A stretch of DNA of 39,895 nucleotides, from positions 1-39,895 of the forward strand of contig CACOEZ010000009.1 in NCBI GenBank assembly GCA_902626385.1. Direction: 5' to 3'. The translations under genes and the position numbers were made by a program. Under the pieces are notes generated by a model, which had not been told where the DNA came from, did no database searches, and saw nothing but the letters and a program-made list of their open reading frames with translations. Source of the DNA: an uncultured SAR86 cluster bacterium. GTDB lineage: Bacteria; Pseudomonadota; Gammaproteobacteria; Magnimaribacterales; D2472. Below are positions 4,319 to 39,895 of this stretch, in pieces; the first letter of the stretch is position 1; the number at the start of each line of letters is the position of its first letter.

Positions 4319-5321
4319 CTCAGTAAATTTAGCATTGATTGGAGCTTCAGGAGTTGTTGGAAAGAAGATTTTAAAGGTTATTGAGAATAAAAAAATCCCT
4401 ATTGATAATTTTTACCCAATTGGTAATTCGTCAGTTGGTTCTGAGGTGTTTTTAAACAATGAAAAATATACTATTTCTGATTTAGATTCTTTTGATAGAT
4501 CAAAAATAAATATTGCCATATTTTCAGCTGGGTCAAAAGTTGCAAGAAAATATGCGCAATCGTTTGTTGATGAAAATATTTATGTTATTGATATGTCATC
4601 TGAGTTTAGATATCAAGAAAACATTCCACTTGTTATTCCTGAAATTAACAATGAATCAATTGAAAATCTAAAAAATCCATCATTGATATCTAATCCAAAT
4701 TGTTCTGTATCGCAACTTTTACTGGCAATTCATCCAATACACAGCCAGTTGAAAATAAACTTTATTAATGTTGCTACATATCAAGCAGTCTCTGGCACTG
4801 GCAAAGATGCAATTTCTGAATTAGAGAACCAATTATCTGGACTGGAAGATATAAATGTTTATCCAAAAAGAATTGCTGGTAACGTGATTCCTCACTGTGA
4901 TGTTTTTCTCGAAAACGATTTTACAAAAGAGGAAATGAAAATTGCTTGGGAGACGCAAAAAATTCTTGATCCAAAAATTCCTGTTCAATCAACTTGTGTA
5001 AGAGTACCAGTAATAAATGGTCATTCAGAAGCAGTATTTTGTCGAACTGAGAAACAAACATCAAAGGAAGAAATTCATAAACTATTAAAAGAAACAAAAG
5101 GCCTGAAATTATTCGACAATCCAGAAAATAATGAATATCCAACTCCACATGAGCATGCTAACGACACGGAAGAAGTTTTCGTTGGGAGAATTAGGGTAGA
5201 ACAAATCAATAACGAAAATTGGATATCAATGTGGATTGTTGCAGATAATGTTTATGGAAAAGGTGCAGCTTTAAATTGTGTTCAAATCTTAGAAAGTTTG
5301 ATTATTAAAAACAAATTATGA
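4311..5321 (+). CDS. asd: Aspartate-semialdehyde dehydrogenase
   Basis: Reduces aspartyl phosphate to aspartate semialdehyde for lysine/diaminopimelate, threonine and methionine. NADP-binding LIGASGVVGKKIL is at the N-terminus. The catalytic cysteine is in SNPNCSVSQLL, and the active-site VRVPVINGHSEAV block is present. A longer ORF opens with a TTG at 4305, but the ATG at 4311 (MSNSVNLALIGASG) gives the usual N-terminus and repeats the 8-base ATGA-type overlap seen at leuD/leuB. In Pseudomonas this position holds asd plus an asd-like usg gene; here there is a single copy. lysC, its upstream enzyme, lies at 33743-34957. Confidence 0.92.
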   Translation: MSNSVNLALIGASGVVGKKILKVIENKKIPIDNFYPIGNSSVGSEVFLNNEKYTISDLDSFDRSKINIAIFSAGSKVARKYAQSFVDENIYVIDMSSEFRYQENIPLVIPEINNESIENLKNPSLISNPNCSVSQLLLAIHPIHSQLKINFINVATYQAVSGTGKDAISELENQLSGLEDINVYPKRIAGNVIPHCDVFLENDFTKEEMKIAWETQKILDPKIPVQSTCVRVPVINGHSEAVFCRTEKQTSKEEIHKLLKETKGLKLFDNPENNEYPTPHEHANDTEEVFVGRIRVEQINNENWISMWIVADNVYGKGAALNCVQILESLIIKNKL

Positions 5322-6616
5322 GGAAGTCATTTGTATTTTTCTTTTTTTTAATAATCAGTATAAATATTTTTGCAGATCCATTTCTCTCTTCGCCAAAAAT
5401 TAAGTTAAATTCAAATGATGAGAGGGTCATTGATATAAAAATTGAAAATGCCTATTTGATGGATAAAGACATTGTTTTAAATGAATATAAATCCGATCTG
5501 CCCATTGATAAAGAAAAAATTATTTATACCTTAATTGAAAATTTTGATTCTTATCAAGTTCTCAAAATTGTTCTATCAGATAAATATGAAGAAGATTATT
5601 TCAGCTTTCAACTAAAAATTAAGGATGATTTTCAAAAAGATATTTTTATATTTCTTCCCTCAAAGATTAGAAATTCATCCGCTGAAATGAGCATATCAGA
5701 AAGTGTCCCTAGAAAATTAGACAGTCCATTATCGACAAATATTAAAGAGATCTCTGAAGAAGAGGAAATAACGGATGAATTAAGAATTATTGAAGCTTCA
5801 GAAATAACCACTGTGTGGAGCATGGCAGAGAAAATAAAATCTAAATCTGATGATTTATCAATATATCAAATAATGTGGTCTATTTATCTGGGAAATAAGG
5901 ATGCATTCATTAACGATAATATTAATCTTATAAGAAAAGATATTGACATAAATATTCCAATGAATTCTGAAATAAGGGATATTTCATATCAATATGCCAA
6001 AGATTCAATTTTGGAAATGAACGAGATTTATTCTTCTAGATTTTCACTTGCTTCTAAATCATTATTGGTTTTAACTGCACCCAGTGTAGAGGATAATCAA
6101 AAATTAACAGTAGAAACACCTAATTCCAAGATTGAAAACATTTCTATTGATGACTCACTTTCACCAAAAGAGTTAATTGAGATGAATACAAGGGATCTCA
6201 GTTTTAAAGTTGAAAATCAAACTGCAGAAAGTTTTCTTGAAGACGTTAATGATTCTAAGAGTATTTCAAAAGGCAATAATATTAGAATTGTTGATATTTT
6301 ATTTATTTCGGTAATATCTCTAGTTTCAGGAATATTTTTAGCTCTCATATTCATAAATTTAAAAAATATTAGAAAATCCAGGAACAAAATTGATTACGAT
6401 TTTGAAGAGGTTAGAGAAGATGATTCTGAGAAGTCTATGCCAAGTGGTCTCAGTGTTGAAAATAACGAATCGCAACAGCAACTAGATCTTGCTGTTATGT
6501 ATATCGAAATGGAAGAACTTGAAAAAGCAAAAAATATCTTAAATGAGCTGATTCAAAATTCTGATGAAGAAGCAATAGTTGATCAAGCATCTGGTTTGAT
6601 TAGTAAAATTAAATAA
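5318..6616 (+). CDS. fimV: Short FimV/HubP-like polar landmark protein
   Basis: Called from position (asd-fimV-truA is a conserved gammaproteobacterial order) and architecture. Residues 1-19 form a signal peptide ending near FA/DP. Residues about 160-225 (ASEITTVWSMAEKI, then IYQIMWSIYLGNKDAFI and NINLIRKDIDINIP) match the LysM-type peptidoglycan-binding region of FimV. Residues 324-348 are one transmembrane helix. The C-terminus from about 389 (QQLDLAVMYIEMEELEKAK) is the conserved FimV C-terminal TPR-like domain. FimV/HubP organises polar machinery such as type IV pili and chemotaxis arrays. At 432 residues it is about half the length of Pseudomonas FimV: the acidic repeat-rich cytoplasmic stretch is nearly gone. 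It overlaps asd by 4 bases. Confidence 0.8.
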   Translation: MRKSFVFFFFLIISINIFADPFLSSPKIKLNSNDERVIDIKIENAYLMDKDIVLNEYKSDLPIDKEKIIYTLIENFDSYQVLKIVLSDKYEEDYFSFQLKIKDDFQKDIFIFLPSKIRNSSAEMSISESVPRKLDSPLSTNIKEISEEEEITDELRIIEASEITTVWSMAEKIKSKSDDLSIYQIMWSIYLGNKDAFINDNINLIRKDIDINIPMNSEIRDISYQYAKDSILEMNEIYSSRFSLASKSLLVLTAPSVEDNQKLTVETPNSKIENISIDDSLSPKELIEMNTRDLSFKVENQTAESFLEDVNDSKSISKGNNIRIVDILFISVISLVSGIFLALIFINLKNIRKSRNKIDYDFEEVREDDSEKSMPSGLSVENNESQQQLDLAVMYIEMEELEKAKNILNELIQNSDEEAIVDQASGLISKIK

Positions 6617-15997: not shown

Positions 15998-16444
15998 GTG
16001 CGCAAATTACAAAAAAAACGATCATCTACACCATGTCTTGGAATATGTTCCACTACTTTTGGTGATGAAGTCTGCAAGGGCTGTAAGCGTTTTTCGCACG
16101 AAATTGTGAGTTGGACAAAATATTCACTTGAAGAAAGAGAAATCATCAATGATCGACTTGAACAATTCAAAGTAAAAATTCTAAAACGTAGATTTAAAAT
16201 TATTGATAGAGATTTATTCATTTCAAAACTTGAAGAAAAGGCAATCAACTTTAATCATGCTCTTGATCCCTTAACATGGATTTTTGATTTATTGAGAGCA
16301 GCTGGATCTCAAAAATTCGACATCGAAAGTTTTGGTATCAAATGTTTAGTGCAATTTAATCCTAAAACAATTAAGGATGAAATCAACCAAGAGCTTTTAG
16401 AATTATCACAAGTTCATCACGAAAGATATTTTAAAAAACTTTAG
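15998..16444 (+). CDS. DUF1289 family cysteine-motif protein
   Basis: A 148-residue protein whose N-terminal 40 residues match DUF1289: PCLGICSTTFGDEVCKGCKR with cysteines 13, 17, 26 and 29, followed by the conserved EIVSW. The family is usually described as a small possible Fe-S or zinc protein of unknown function. The rest (about 45-148) is charged, helical and unrecognised. It starts with GTG; an out-of-frame ATG begins 2 bases earlier. It is divergent from acnB and its stop overlaps the convergent ferritin-like gene by 4 bases. Confidence 0.7.
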   Translation: MRKLQKKRSSTPCLGICSTTFGDEVCKGCKRFSHEIVSWTKYSLEEREIINDRLEQFKVKILKRRFKIIDRDLFISKLEEKAINFNHALDPLTWIFDLLRAAGSQKFDIESFGIKCLVQFNPKTIKDEINQELLELSQVHHERYFKKL

Positions 16445-16881
16445 CTAAAGTCCTTGAGCATAATTTTCAACTCAAGTGAATGTTGTTCCTCTTCACTAAT
16501 TTGAGCTCTGGCATATTCTTCTAGATACACAGATTTGTTTTCTACCGATTGAAGTAATTTTTTGTACAAGCTCAATGCATGTAATTCATGTTCTAAACTT
16601 TCTACAAGTATGTCTTTTATTGAATGTCTATTTGTTTCTTCAATTTTTGCAATCTTTTGACTTGGATGCCCATTTAATCCAGCAATTTTTTCACCAGCTT
16701 GTTGTGCATGAAGAAGCGATTCAGAAGCTTGTTCTTTTAAGAAAGTCACAATCGGTAATCTGTATGGTCCACTTACCATCATGGAGGAGTGTGTATATCT
16801 GACTACCCCAGCTAATTCGTATTCCATAATTTCATTCAAAATACTGCAAACTTTATTAGATTCTATTTGTGCGTTTTCCAT
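16441..16881 (-). CDS. Ferritin-like (bacterioferritin-type) diiron protein
   Basis: A 146-residue four-helix protein of the bacterioferritin/Dps-like group. Helix 1 carries E22 in EYELAGVVRYTH with H31. Helix 2 has ESLLHAQQAGEKIAGLNGHPS (E54, H58, E64). Helix 3 has ESLEHELHAL and helix 4 EEEQHSLEL, giving repeated Glu/His pairs expected for a diiron site. Likely roles are iron storage or protection from peroxide; heme binding cannot be judged. A good promoter is at 16916-16943 and Fur-like sites lie further upstream, which points to iron control. Confidence 0.75.
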   Translation of the reverse strand: MENAQIESNKVCSILNEIMEYELAGVVRYTHSSMMVSGPYRLPIVTFLKEQASESLLHAQQAGEKIAGLNGHPSQKIAKIEETNRHSIKDILVESLEHELHALSLYKKLLQSVENKSVYLEEYARAQISEEEQHSLELKIMLKDFS

Positions 16882-16963: not shown

Positions 16964-16994
16964 TTTAATGATAATTATTTTGATTATCATTCTC
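16964..16994 (-). promoter_or_regulatory. Overlapping Fur-box-like sites
   Basis: Two overlapping 19-base windows, 16964-16982 and 16976-16994, each match 14 of 19 positions of the Fur consensus GATAATGATAATCATTATC. They lie about 55-85 bases upstream of the predicted start of the ferritin-like gene, above the -35, and touch the end of the DCC-family gene. AT-rich DNA raises the false-positive rate. Confidence 0.45.
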
Positions 16995-36342: not shown

Positions 36343-36432
36343 GGAGAGTTGGCTGAGTGGTCGAAAGCGCCTCCCTGCTAAGGAGGTAACTGGGCAACTG
36401 GTTCGAGGGTTCGAATCCCTCACTCTCCGCCA
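36343..36432 (+). tRNA. tRNA-Ser (anticodon GCT)
   Basis: 90 bases with encoded CCA (36430-36432). The acceptor stem pairs GGAGAGT with ACTCTCC, the anticodon loop is CTGCTAA, a long class II variable arm (about TAACTGGGCAACTGGTT) is present, and the T loop is TTCGAAT. In Pseudomonas the same tRNA follows alaS-lysC-csrA. Confidence 0.97.
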
Positions 36433-36451: not shown

Positions 36452-37303
36452 ATGGAAAATGAACATATAGCAGATTTTTTAAGTGATTTCTCAATAGAGG
36501 TTACACCAAATGCTGCTAACAAAATTGAAAACTTTGCAGAGTACCTTCCTTTAGGCACTTTAATTTATATTGCTCATATTGAAGGCACACCTATTGAAGA
36601 CACTGTAAGCACTGCGAAAAAAATCACTGATCAAGGATTTACAGCAATGCCTCATTTCCCAGCAAGAATTATTAAAGATAAAGAAATGCTGTCTGATTGG
36701 ATTTCAAAATATCAGAATGAGGCTGGTGTTGAAAATGCACTTTTAATTGCAGGTGGTGCAAACAAACCATATGGCGATTATGACTCATCTATTGATTTAA
36801 TTGAGTCTGGATTATTTGATCAAGCTCGATTTAAAAATTTACATATTGCAGGTCATCCAGAGGGTAGCAAGGATATTGATCCAGATGGTACTACTTCAAA
36901 CGTTGATGAGGCTCTTTCATGGAAAAATGAATTTAGTAAGAGAACTGACGCATCCATGGCTATTACTACTCAATTTTGCTTTGATTCAAATTCAGTTATC
37001 CAATGGGCAAATAGCATTAAAAAATCGGGCATTGATATTCCAGTGCATATTGGAATTGCTGGCCCAGCGAAACTGCAGACTTTACTTAGATATTCTATTG
37101 AATGTGGCGTTGGAGCCTCTATAAAAATTCTTCAAAAAAGGGCCAAAGATATTACAAAACTTTTATTGCCATATAAGCCAACAGAAATAATAAACGAATT
37201 AGCTCTTCATAAGGCCAAAAATCCTGACTTTAACATAGAGAAAGTTCATTTCTTTCCTCTCGGTGGAATAAAACAAGTAAGTCAGTTCATCAAAGAACAG
37301 TAA
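36452..37303 (+). CDS. Methylenetetrahydrofolate reductase family protein (MetF-like)
   Basis: 283-residue TIM-barrel protein resembling MetF. LGTLIYIAHIEGTPIEDT, GFTAMPHFPARII, LLIAGGANKPYGDYDSS, LHIAGHPEGSKDI and ITTQFCFD correspond to the MetF FAD- and folate-binding blocks in order. The HFPAR, GGANKPYG and GIAGPA forms differ from E. coli MetF (296 residues) and match a divergent subgroup often seen with C1/methyl-transfer catabolism. Whether it serves methionine synthesis or C1 oxidation is not clear. It begins 19 bases after tRNA-Ser. Confidence 0.75.
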   Translation: MENEHIADFLSDFSIEVTPNAANKIENFAEYLPLGTLIYIAHIEGTPIEDTVSTAKKITDQGFTAMPHFPARIIKDKEMLSDWISKYQNEAGVENALLIAGGANKPYGDYDSSIDLIESGLFDQARFKNLHIAGHPEGSKDIDPDGTTSNVDEALSWKNEFSKRTDASMAITTQFCFDSNSVIQWANSIKKSGIDIPVHIGIAGPAKLQTLLRYSIECGVGASIKILQKRAKDITKLLLPYKPTEIINELALHKAKNPDFNIEKVHFFPLGGIKQVSQFIKEQ

Positions 37304-37351: not shown

Positions 37352-37370
37352 AATAATGATAATTATTGTT
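37352..37370 (+). promoter_or_regulatory. Fur-box-like site
   Basis: AATAATGATAATTATTGTT matches 15 of 19 positions of the Fur consensus and contains a perfect inverted repeat, AATAAT-GATA-ATTATT (37352-37367). It lies 38 bases before the membrane protein gene and overlaps the predicted -35. Confidence 0.5.
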
Positions 37371-37395
37371 GTAATATTTAGAATTAAATTATATT
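37366..37395 (+). promoter_or_regulatory. Candidate promoter of the membrane protein/lipoprotein operon
   Basis: TTGTTG (37366-37371), an 18-base spacer and TATATT (37390-37395). The predicted start near 37402 would clip the GGGAGA ribosome site at 37398-37403, so the true promoter may lie a little further upstream. Confidence 0.3.
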
Positions 37396-37408
37396 AAGGG
37401 AGAATATT

Positions 37409-37813
37409 ATGGAAATGGAAATATGGAACGTTTGGGCAACCAACAGAATTCCAGGTGCAATTGGAGGATTAAGTACAATCATTGCAATATGGGTAGCTGC
37501 AAGATTTGCTAGCGTTGCGTCTGAACAATCAGAAGAAAATAAAACACTAGCAGGAAAAATACTACTCACATTATTTGGTGGGTCGGTAATTGCATGGGGC
37601 GTTCAAAATAATTTATTTGCTCAAGGTAACTGGACAGCAGCCGCTAGAGGATTTAATAATCTTAAAGAGAGCGGAGTTGAAATAAGTGCTGGCGCTGAAA
37701 GGTTTGCAGAAATGTATGCTGCAGAACCCAGTCTTATGAATCAACCAGTTGCAATAGTATTTTTTGTAACAGCTTTTTTAATTATCTTGTATCCTATCTG
37801 GTTTAAAAAATAA
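37409..37813 (+). CDS. Small three-helix membrane protein of unknown function
   Basis: 134 residues, not recognised. Predicted membrane segments are at about 14-35, 50-70 and 111-131. Between the second and third is a soluble loop of about 40 residues (NNLFAQGNWTAAARGFNNLKE and on). A strong GGGAGA precedes the ATG by 5 bases. It is preceded by a Fur-like box and followed after 2 bases by a lipoprotein gene, so the two form an operon and may act together at the envelope. No metal-binding histidine or cysteine cluster is seen in it; there is no cysteine at all. Confidence 0.75.
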   Translation: MEMEIWNVWATNRIPGAIGGLSTIIAIWVAARFASVASEQSEENKTLAGKILLTLFGGSVIAWGVQNNLFAQGNWTAAARGFNNLKESGVEISAGAERFAEMYAAEPSLMNQPVAIVFFVTAFLIILYPIWFKK

Positions 37814-37815
37814 TC

Positions 37816-38598
37816 ATGAATAATACTAAATATTTATTAGGTGCTTTACTAACTTTATTTATTGTTAGTTGTTCTAACGAAAATGAGTCTGTTGTAAGTG
37901 ATACAGGTCCAATATACAAAGGACCATATTACAACGAATTCTTGGCTTGCAATGCTGGTCCAGCATTTCAAGATGGAATTCAAGAGATGCTATCTGCCTG
38001 GCAAGAACTTCCAGCTGCTAAAGGTCTTGGATGGGCTGGTGTGTATGCTCCAAAAGGAGATGATCATAGATTTTCAAATGGATGGTGGGAATTAGAGTGG
38101 GACTCAAAAGAAAGTTCAGATAATGCCTTTAACAATCCTTCGCCTGAGTTTTTAGCATGGTCAGAAAAATATTCTGATGTAATGACTTGCGATATTGAAG
38201 GAAGATTTCCATGGACATTTTACTTACCAAGAGATCCTGGATCCTTTGGTGAGGTAATGGGTGAAAATGGATATTTTGCCTCTGAATTTCTTGCTTGTAA
38301 TTATAAAGAGGGTAAATCTGGAGAAGACTTAAGAGCTGCTGTTGTTCAGTTCAATGAATACCTTGATCAAAATGGAAGTGAGGTACCATACTTTTATGGC
38401 GTTTATTTCCCTCAATTTGATACCGATACTGATTTCTTATGGGGAAACTGGCATGCAAGTTTTGAAACCATGGAAATTGGTAACAAAGACTGGGAAGAAA
38501 ATGGCAAAGCTATGCAGGCAAAGTTTGATGAAATATCTACATGCATTTCACCAGATTATTACGATAGTAGAGAGTTATATAACAATCCTAGTACGTAA
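37816..38598 (+). CDS. Lipoprotein with two tandem copies of an unrecognised domain
   Basis: 260 residues. The signal peptide ends in a lipobox with Cys19 (LFIVSC). The mature protein holds two related units: residues about 39-140 and 153-255. Both open with the identical EFLACN (41-46 and 157-162), contain a GVY-P turn (75-79; 195-199) and a Trp-rich strand (GWWELEW; WGNWHASFE), and close with TC (Cys125; Cys243). Each unit thus has a cysteine pair 80 or 82 residues apart. The alternating strand and helix pattern resembles a dimeric alpha/beta-barrel fold; that is a guess. The operon partner is the membrane protein 2 bases upstream. Confidence 0.78.
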   Translation: MNNTKYLLGALLTLFIVSCSNENESVVSDTGPIYKGPYYNEFLACNAGPAFQDGIQEMLSAWQELPAAKGLGWAGVYAPKGDDHRFSNGWWELEWDSKESSDNAFNNPSPEFLAWSEKYSDVMTCDIEGRFPWTFYLPRDPGSFGEVMGENGYFASEFLACNYKEGKSGEDLRAAVVQFNEYLDQNGSEVPYFYGVYFPQFDTDTDFLWGNWHASFETMEIGNKDWEENGKAMQAKFDEISTCISPDYYDSRELYNNPST

Positions 38599-38617
38599 TA
38601 AAAACTGATTTTAAATT

Positions 38618-38643
38618 CGGAGGGGAAACCCTCCGTTTTTTTT
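38618..38643 (+). terminator. Rho-independent terminator
   Basis: A 7-bp GC-rich stem CGGAGGG/CCCTCCG with a GAAA tetraloop (38618-38635), followed by eight T (38636-38643). It ends the lipoprotein operon and is the only strong intrinsic terminator in the window. The T-run touches the stop codon of the convergent ctlX-like gene. Confidence 0.95.
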
Positions 38644-39550
38644 AGAATAATTCAGCTAACATGCATCTAGCTGAACCACCACCATATTTTTCAATTGTTG
38701 GAATATCAGCATGCAAAATACTTTTGTAATAATCTTCTAAAAAAGTAAGGTTTTCTGAAGTTAAAGAAGAGTATGCTTTGGATGACATAATTAGAAAATA
38801 ATCTCCATTTTCATTTCTTGCTTCAAGCGCATTTCCGCAAAAATTCATTATTTGACCTTGAGTAATTTCAAACACATCATGAAATCTTTCTATTTTTTGT
38901 TTAACCATTTTTCTATATTCTTCATTAATGACTTCGTAACAAATACCAATCATTTTTGTTCCGATAAACATAAATACATCTGTGTGATAGATTGGCGAAT
39001 TTGAATGGCTGTTGGTCTCAAATTTAACAAGTTCAAAATCATTCTCTTTACACCAGTTCGTCAACTGATCTTCATTAGTTCTCTCTGAAATACCTGCATA
39101 TACGCACCTATTAATTCTATCTATTACCATGCTGCTGGTAGACTCTAGGAAAATATTTTCGTTCTCAAGATACGAGTAGTCTTTTGTAAGCTTGTAGGTC
39201 TTAGATAAATGTTCAATCATCTCGGGCTTTTTTTCAATTCTTCTATTGGGAGCCATCATGCTGAACAACTGCATTGTTTTATCTTGAAAAGTTATAAACC
39301 AATTTGGAAAGATATGATCAGGACAGTCAGAGCTGCCCTTTAAAGAAGTAACTCTTATTCCTGCTGCCTCCAAAGTATTTTTAAAGTTATTAAATTCTGA
39401 AAGTGCTTTTTTTGCTATATCTTCAGGACTTTCCAAATTTTCTTTTTCTTGATATGCATTTGTTTCTGCTGTTTGTGGATTGCACTGAAAAGCGACAGGC
39501 TCAATCATTAATAAATGCTGGCTCGACTGATTAATGTTTGATTCTTTCAT
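38642..39550 (-). CDS. CtlX-like amidinotransferase-fold hydrolase (arginine deiminase superfamily)
   Basis: About 302 residues from ATG 39550. The ORF can be extended to 39589, but that start would overlap the divergent rocD and adds a hydrophobic tail not expected for this cytoplasmic family. Matching blocks are LLMIEPVAFQCNPQTAETNAYQ, PDHIFPNWFITF, LESTSSMVIDR, the catalytic-His region SPIYHTDVFMFIG, and the C-terminal nucleophile in GGGSARCMLAELF. CtlX members hydrolyse citrulline to ornithine; arginine or dimethylarginine are alternatives. The divergent ornithine aminotransferase supports an ornithine-yielding reaction. Confidence 0.8.
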   Translation of the reverse strand: MKESNINQSSQHLLMIEPVAFQCNPQTAETNAYQEKENLESPEDIAKKALSEFNNFKNTLEAAGIRVTSLKGSSDCPDHIFPNWFITFQDKTMQLFSMMAPNRRIEKKPEMIEHLSKTYKLTKDYSYLENENIFLESTSSMVIDRINRCVYAGISERTNEDQLTNWCKENDFELVKFETNSHSNSPIYHTDVFMFIGTKMIGICYEVINEEYRKMVKQKIERFHDVFEITQGQIMNFCGNALEARNENGDYFLIMSSKAYSSLTSENLTFLEDYYKSILHADIPTIEKYGGGSARCMLAELF

Positions 39551-39579
39551 GATAAAAATAATGAGAGTAAAATACACAA

Positions 39580-39895
39580 ATGCCATCAAGTTTACAAGAA
39601 CAATTTATAAAAAAAGAAGCTCTTTTTGGTGCTCAAAATTACGCTCCTCTTTCAGTAGTCCTAGAAAAAGGTGAGGGTGCTTACTTATGGGATGTTGATG
39701 GTAATAAATATCTCGACATGGTCTCTGCATATTCTGCAGTAAGCCATGGACACTCTCATCCTGAGCTAGTAAAAATTATTCAAAAACAAGCCAGTAAGTT
39801 AGCTATAACCTCCAGAGCTTTTTATACAGAACCTTTTAGTGATTTCTTAGAAAAACTAACAAATGTTTCCGGTTTTGAAAATGTATTAACAATGA
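39580..39895 (+). CDS. rocD: Ornithine aminotransferase, N-terminal part (cut by window end)
   Basis: Only the first 105 codons are in the window. They encode a class III PLP aminotransferase N-terminus: FGAQNYAPLSVVLEKGEGAYLWD, then KYLDMVSAYSAVSHGHSHPEL and LAITSRAFYTEPFSDFLEKL. The YAPLSVVL, SAYSAV and TSRAFY forms are typical of ornithine aminotransferase (RocD), which turns ornithine and 2-oxoglutarate into glutamate semialdehyde. The PLP lysine lies beyond the window. The gap to the divergent ctlX-like gene is only 29 bases. Confidence 0.85.
   Translation, partial: MPSSLQEQFIKKEALFGAQNYAPLSVVLEKGEGAYLWDVDGNKYLDMVSAYSAVSHGHSHPELVKIIQKQASKLAITSRAFYTEPFSDFLEKLTNVSGFENVLTM

Follow-up and report, generated by a model that had tools for sequence, protein, structure and literature searches.

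The closest published pattern that we found to the locus described here is the replacement flexible genomic island of aquatic prokaryotes. In the passages of Lopez-Perez et al. 2014 (PMC4033161) that bear on the point, such islands hold differing content at one chromosomal place in close relatives, lie between conserved flanks, and typically encode exposed structures; phage pressure on those structures is the explanation offered, homologous recombination is the proposed route, and whole clusters, not individual genes, were exchanged. Our locus lies near one end of a 39,895-nucleotide stretch from an uncultured SAR86 cluster bacterium (assembly GCA_902626385.1, contig CACOEZ010000009.1, positions 1 to 39,895), which in its full length is called the window. 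It comprises a gene for a small membrane protein, P1, and a gene for a lipoprotein, P2. Close relatives carry different P1 alleles at one place between conserved flanks, and we count this, the proposed recombination and the exposed structures among the likenesses to replacement islands. The difference lies in the unit: P1 alone is exchanged, one gene of about 400 bp, where an island would trade a complete functional cluster encoding an exposed structure. P1 alleles are homologous but only about 30% identical, and P1 is no glycan or appendage cluster. Such exchange of a single inner-membrane gene would be a variant of the replacement island. We propose, with a probability of roughly 0.7, that a fixed slot in SAR86 genomes holds P1 as an exchangeable single-gene cassette, sometimes followed by P2, which is not exchanged with it. 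Replacement of P1 alleles at fixed addresses is directly observed, and their in-place exchange at two addresses is a new result; we found no description of P1 exchange among the titles and abstracts that SAR86 searches of an open-access library listed.

SAR86 are abundant ocean bacteria, and the nearest named relatives sharing the locus are SAR86 cluster genomes such as AH-326-O02 (P2 identity 90%). The window genome is designated G000 and its contig C9; relatives are numbered from G001 onward, and the loci fetched from them carry L-numbers. The parts of the locus, in window coordinates, are:

36343-36429, forward strand: tRNA gene, context upstream of the locus (Rfam RF00005, 63.1 bits)
36452-37303, forward strand: MTHFR-like gene, the conserved left flank (Pfam MTHFR 6.3e-6; NCBIfam fadh2 7.2e-9, far below cut-off)
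37409-37813, forward strand: P1, predicted three-helix membrane protein of 134 amino acids, allele type A, the exchangeable gene (open reading frame, helical model)
37613-37738, forward strand: P1 residues 69-110, a loop predicted to be periplasmic from charge and hydrophobicity
37816-38598, forward strand: P2, predicted lipoprotein of 260 amino acids (open reading frame, lipobox)
37816-37872, forward strand: predicted P2 signal peptide through the lipobox cysteine Cys19 (conservation of Cys19)
37918-38226, forward strand: P2 domain 1, modelled as beta-alpha-beta-beta-alpha-beta, with Cys45 and Cys125 (model and repeat test)
38272-38583, forward strand: P2 domain 2, modelled with the same order of elements, with Cys161 and Cys243 (model and repeat test)
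38618-38635, forward strand: intrinsic terminator, CGGAGGGGAAACCCTCCG then eight T; in relatives its sequence varies with slot content
38642-39589, reverse strand: CtlX/DDAH-like hydrolase gene, the conserved right flank, convergent (Pfam DDAH_eukar 1.4e-74; NCBIfam CtlX 303 bits, cut-off 334)

The MTHFR-like gene was found in 28 of the 34 genomes of the genus, and the slots covered are that of the window, 27 MTHFR-anchored loci from 26 genomes, and G009, where the contig starts partway through P1; G016, despite its MTHFR match, was left out of the slot catalogue. The G023 slot is empty: 25 bases separate its flanks, and since they include an N, an assembly effect is possible there. The 28 slots that carry P1 divide into three allele types, each of which forms one clade in the P1 tree: type A in 11 slots (6 with P2), type B in 6 (4 with P2; two of the six are copies within G013) and type C in 11 (1 with P2). 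Identity is 71-100% within A (the low end being the partial G009), 77-98% within B and 43-100% within C, and falls to 20-36% between types. On the MTHFR tree, with 27 labelled rows and G009 left out for want of an MTHFR gene on its contig, the types require 8 changes where 2 would do (shuffled mean 12.6), and the presence of P2 requires 4. Between G021 and G014, P2 is cleanly present or absent while P1 is kept, so P2 comes and goes separately. Terminator stems also differ among slots, being of the GGAGGG type in most A and B slots, of the ACGCC/ACGCT type in most C slots, and of other kinds in G010, G030 and G032.

Among 325 slot pairs (G013's second copy and G009 left out), 14 have both flanks at least 80% identical; 8 of these share a P1 type, with P1 at 82-100%, and 6 differ in type, amounting to 3 independent contrasts. 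Between G020 (A) and G022 (C), the flanks are 95% identical, running mostly at 90-100% for more than 800 bases to the left and 2 kb to the right, while the P1 region drops to 28-65% at the nucleotide level and the proteins are 30% identical. G024 (A) and G015 (B) have flanks of 73-98% and a P1 region of 42-57%, and most 60-base windows of P2 between them are 88-98% identical. G012 (type A) carries P2 and G008 (type C) does not; between them the left flank is 83% identical, the right flank 89% and P1 32%.

A second, unrelated address shows the same exchange of types A and C. In two other genera of the family, P1 lies between a tRNA U5-methyltransferase gene and hisG at eight loci, whose flanking gene families were named on one locus and grouped by BLAST for the remaining seven. 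There, G083 (type A) and G077 (type C), which belong to the same genus, differ to 29-30% amino acid identity and about 50% nucleotide identity in P1 between flanks that are mostly 90-99% identical. In a tree of 62 P1 proteins (again without G013's second copy and G009), the G083 protein groups with slot type A, and the remaining seven from the hisG locus are placed in the clade containing type C.

To place these values against a background, all open reading frames of at least 90 amino acids were compared between three pairs of genomes over four stretches (G020/G022, G024/G015, and G083/G077 twice). Conserved neighbors lie on both sides of 172 genes (45+74+32+21), of which 8 are below 60% identity or missing. 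Three of the 8 have a remote homologue in place, and all three are P1 (two at the slot, one at hisG); the other five, some of which may be effects of reading-frame calling, have no homologue. Some further background genes are moderately divergent, at 62-79%, above the 60% cut. G024 and G015 also share a P1 paralogue next to a DUF1295 gene, with 98% identity against 34-37% for their slot P1 proteins; in the one pair compared, exchange therefore concerns one address and not the whole family. The replacement would proceed through homologous recombination within the flanks, which are conserved, and the donor alleles would probably come from other SAR86 lineages.

Several points weigh against this account. 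Four of the six close pairs that differ in type represent a single contrast, and the pairs compared gene by gene were picked for differing P1, so they show that P1 is unusual within them and not how frequent exchange is overall. Strongly supported inner branches make up 9 of 29 in the MTHFR tree and force fewer changes (A 4, C 3, B 2). The flanks recombine too, as in G007 and G020 (left 96%, right 79%), and the MTHFR tree is therefore not a pure species tree. Within type A, the ratio of nonsynonymous to synonymous polymorphism (pN/pS) is 0.21 for the whole of P1, 0.33 for loop 69-110 and 0.07 for residues 1-47; this is purifying rather than positive selection, and positive selection on the predicted periplasmic loop was not shown at 0.33. 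Most of the genomes are incomplete and several are metagenome bins; G015, G024, G083 and G077 are presumably single-cell genomes, in which binning error is less likely and amplification chimeras are still possible. In the relevant part of a published account (PMC11582366), some SAR86 assemblies of closely related single-cell genomes are reported to be artificial chimeras; the same paper also reports a SAR86 isolate in culture.

In a separate observation on G007 (L125) and G020 (L127), the left flank and P1 are together 96-99% identical and the right flank 79%, which places a recombination boundary near the P1/CtlX junction.

What P1 does is a more tentative matter. The protein has three hydrophobic stretches and is modelled as a helical bundle with a mean predicted local distance difference test score (pLDDT) of 85.5, from an alignment of only 10 sequences; that it is a helical membrane protein is shown by this model only. 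Charge and hydrophobicity suggest an N-terminus outside, the first loop and C-terminus inside, and loop 69-110 in the periplasm. Among the long regions, identity between A and B or C is highest in the first helix (40-56%) and lowest in loop 69-110 (16-22%); outside them, the short first loop falls to 12-14% in these comparisons. B and C1 depart from this order, their lowest identity being in the third helix (12%, against 19% for loop 69-110). This pattern would fit a membrane scaffold with a changing periplasmic face, but it would also fit simple relaxed constraint. A fold search was uninformative, the best Foldseek E (0.13) and the best Z (9.3) being within the chance range for helical bundles. 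No family in Pfam or NCBIfam exceeds its curated cut-off for P1, nothing convincing was found for P1 or P2 in PHROGs, PADLOC or PDB sequences, and the PADLOC anti-phage models gave no match at E up to 1 for P1 of G000, P1 of G020 or P2.

The fast-changing loop probably faces the periplasm, the compartment into which P2 is also predicted to be exported. The periplasmic face of P1 might meet something variable, whether a toxin, a factor for phage entry or a partner in the envelope, for instance P2, and a change of allele might then alter sensitivity or specificity. A role of P1 in phage or toxin sensitivity is the one that we prefer, unproven as it is. In its fullest form, this would make P1 a SAR86-specific inner-membrane determinant of sensitivity to attack (a factor in phage genome entry or bacteriocin action, or an exclusion protein), with balancing selection keeping deep alternative forms, a 400-base cassette traded between lineages at several fixed addresses, and P2 as a periplasmic partner where present. 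As a complete account, this is speculative and rather unlikely to hold in every part.

The alternative that survives best, a real though minority possibility, is that one envelope complex has P1 and P2 as subunits and that the exchange of P1 is nearly neutral, with equivalent alleles spread by chance recombination. In the eight P1-P2 junctions read, the genes are 2 bases apart in five of type A (as in the window) and overlap by 1-4 bases in three of type B, a tightness that favors a complex, as does purifying selection among type A alleles. Another SAR86 family, f2, also has the pair, on one strand and 1-3 bases apart in G096, G102 and G144, and divergently in G117; these four stretches show neither MTHFR nor CtlX genes, though a control slot locus yields both. 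That the pair turns up again at an unrelated place speaks for functional coupling; that the two genes are often separate speaks against an obligate unit. P2 is also present in 11 of the 28 P1-bearing slots of the genus and P1 stands without it in 17, which likewise counts against the neutral complex, and P1 adjoins P2 in 11 of 54 named P2 loci, the other 43 showing no P1 in the fetched stretch (a few of these end near P2 at a contig end). Coupling is thus likely, judged from gene order, and not obligate. Moreover, other neighboring genes in the compared stretches are not exchanged at such divergence, a pattern that neutral recombination alone would not predict.

The original prediction had described the two genes as a closed, self-contained unit. 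Shared slots, tight junctions and the f2 pairs uphold that in part; P1 alone in 17 of 28 slots and the 43 P2 loci without P1 do not. It had also named three findings that would speak against it, among them homologues mostly apart and an unconserved upstream palindrome, and these two are what the relatives show.

More widely, of 150 relative genomes, 118 have P2 relatives, often more than one, and 87 have P1 relatives. When 369 genomes were drawn from across the class, P1 was present in 4, all of the SAR86 order, and P2 in 5, four of the SAR86 order and one weaker match elsewhere; by these sequence matches, the P1 family is restricted to SAR86 within the class-wide sample. Named P2 loci are also found in SAR92, in Porticoccaceae genomes and in the gammaproteobacterium HTCC2207 (L092). 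Two contigs labelled Flavobacteriaceae and Flavobacterium (L069, L077) carry SAR86-like P2 and CtlX genes and are probably binning errors. Among the f2 pairs (L183 1242-2939, L190 and L193), L183 and L190 carry a further P1 gene on the opposite strand. The f2 P2 proteins translated in frame (G144, G117; loci L192, L193) begin with a plain signal peptide that lacks a lipobox cysteine. Other SAR86 genomes hold P1 paralogues in arrays of two to four (L180, L184, L182, L195), those of L180 and L184 coming directly after UbiA-type and SCO1/SenC genes. Outside the slot, neither gene has a constant partner among its neighbors: P1 relatives were seen beside tRNA U5-methyltransferase, HisG, DUF1295, 3-hydroxyisobutyrate-type dehydrogenase, zinc alcohol dehydrogenase, SCO1 and UbiA genes, and P2 relatives beside genes for a LysR regulator, a VTT protein, a desaturase, a Pif1-like helicase, an ABC transporter, an aminotransferase, a GFA protein and a dienelactone hydrolase.

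P2 has a predicted signal peptide and lipobox cysteine, as expected of a bacterial lipoprotein: the lipobox IVSC occupies residues 16-19, Cys19 is invariant in 26 aligned sequences including the window's, and, of nine slot P2 genes tried, the 8 with a readable N-terminus, which leaves out G032, have a V[SG]C motif. The original prediction of a duplicated domain with matching cysteine pairs was borne out. The two halves are homologous in an hhalign profile comparison (probability 95.8%, E 6.8e-9, 20% identity), and C45 aligns with C161 and C125 with C243; across 47 aligned sequences, C161 and C243 never vary, while conservation of C45 and C125 is 90% or above. The structural model (mean pLDDT 87.3, predicted template modelling score 0.80) shows beta-alpha-beta-beta-alpha-beta twice, and P2 is accordingly modelled as two fused ferredoxin-like domains forming one single-chain dimeric alpha-beta barrel (DABB), a fold in which each barrel is made of two such domains. 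In comparisons with Foldseek and VIA-align, it resembles the marine metagenome protein 2pgc (Foldseek E 2.2e-7; Z 16.2, root-mean-square deviation (rmsd) 3.0 over 197 aligned residues) and, tied with it, the sulfur oxygenase reductase 6qpa (Z 16.4, rmsd 3.5 over 217), both of which share the duplicated ferredoxin-like domain. P2 differs from them in its lipoprotein signal and its two matched cysteine pairs, and identity to the two is 7-8%.

Neither protein matches a recognized family, which agrees with the envelope pair of unrecognized families first put forward. No family over a curated cut-off was found for P2 in Pfam or NCBIfam and no convincing sequence relative in PDB, and Pfam scans of 26 P2 and 25 P1 sequences returned no family that matched more than 2 members. 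The profile and structure searches suggested at that time have thus yielded a DABB model for P2, no sequence family, and no standout fold match for P1. One could read this fold as that of an enzyme, monooxygenase-like or cofactor-binding, with P1 as its membrane anchor or electron-transfer partner. DABB folds are common to annotated monooxygenases, chlorite dismutase, DyP peroxidases and sulfur oxygenase reductase, and P2 has conserved residues W90, W91, E92 and W95 and an H213 invariant in 16 sequences. We consider this reading improbable: identity to those DABB chains is only about 4-14%, and the PDB search counts against it as well. P2 might instead be a lipoprotein that binds a ligand or forms a complex, and not one that serves in iron stress.

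Very improbable is a selfish or phage-borne insertion, with P1 as cargo of a mobile element and the slot as its attachment site. The tRNA gene about 0.9 kb upstream, the variable presence of P2 and the empty slot of G023 would suit it, but the slots show no further open reading frame of at least 100 amino acids between the flanks, and neither P1 nor P2 has a match in 50,697 phage records or a confirmed match in IMG/VR scans. A viral origin of P1 and P2 was rejected on the latter grounds.

The least credible of the alternatives, that Fur represses P1-P2 in the presence of iron as an iron or metal stress operon, was the core of the original prediction. It can be judged against a ferritin-domain gene elsewhere in the window:

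37352-37370, forward strand: Fur-like AT-rich site AATAATGATAATTATTGTT, 15/19, not conserved (Fur scoring)
37352-37367: palindrome AATAAT-GATA-ATTATT, read in the sequence
16441-16881, reverse strand: ferritin-domain gene (Pfam Ferritin 1.2e-15)

Sites were scored as matches out of 19 to a Fur consensus. The genome encodes one Fur-family protein (119.7 bits) and the site at 37352 reaches 15/19, but 6 of 500 shuffles of the 105-base gap reach that score, and chance alone would give 0.75 such sites in the whole window. Among 27 P1-bearing slots scored (G009, without MTHFR on its contig, left out), only the window's own attains 14/19; the 26 others remain at 13/19 or below, including the nearest relative, G025, whose P1 is 94% identical and whose best site scores 13/19. 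Within the window's genome, both the ferritin gene and P1 have a Fur-like site upstream, but the ferritin box scores 15-17/19 in 28 of 28 rows of the genus (30 loci, with the partial L277 and L286 dropped; two rows share one genome). The scoring thus recovers conserved Fur boxes in this control; P1 has none of the kind that a member of a Fur regulon would keep across relatives, and Fur control was rejected; nor does P1 or P2 match an iron protein family in Pfam or NCBIfam. The Fur-like boxes upstream of the ferritin-domain gene overlap at 16964-16994.

The layout of the locus itself was read correctly at the outset, with both open reading frames, the 2-base gap, the palindrome and the terminator all in place. 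The terminator, described as the only strong one in the window, is indeed the best of 17 terminator-like sites listed, with 6 GC pairs and a full T tract against 3-4 GC pairs in the other 16. The protein of the left flank scores 35 bits against an NCBIfam MTHFR cut-off of 294 and is perhaps a divergent MTHFR or a different enzyme of the MTHFR family. Elsewhere in the window, positions 5318-6616 encode a 432-amino-acid protein with no Pfam match at E 0.001.

In summary, iron control is removed as a false lead, and two protein families without a Pfam or NCBIfam model over cut-off are described. In-place replacement of P1 by a 30%-identical relative at two addresses, among neighbors with mostly 90-99% identity, suggests that selection acts on a single small membrane protein. 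With P1, the forces behind allele exchange in streamlined plankton, whether phage, toxins or niche, can be approached through one concrete gene.
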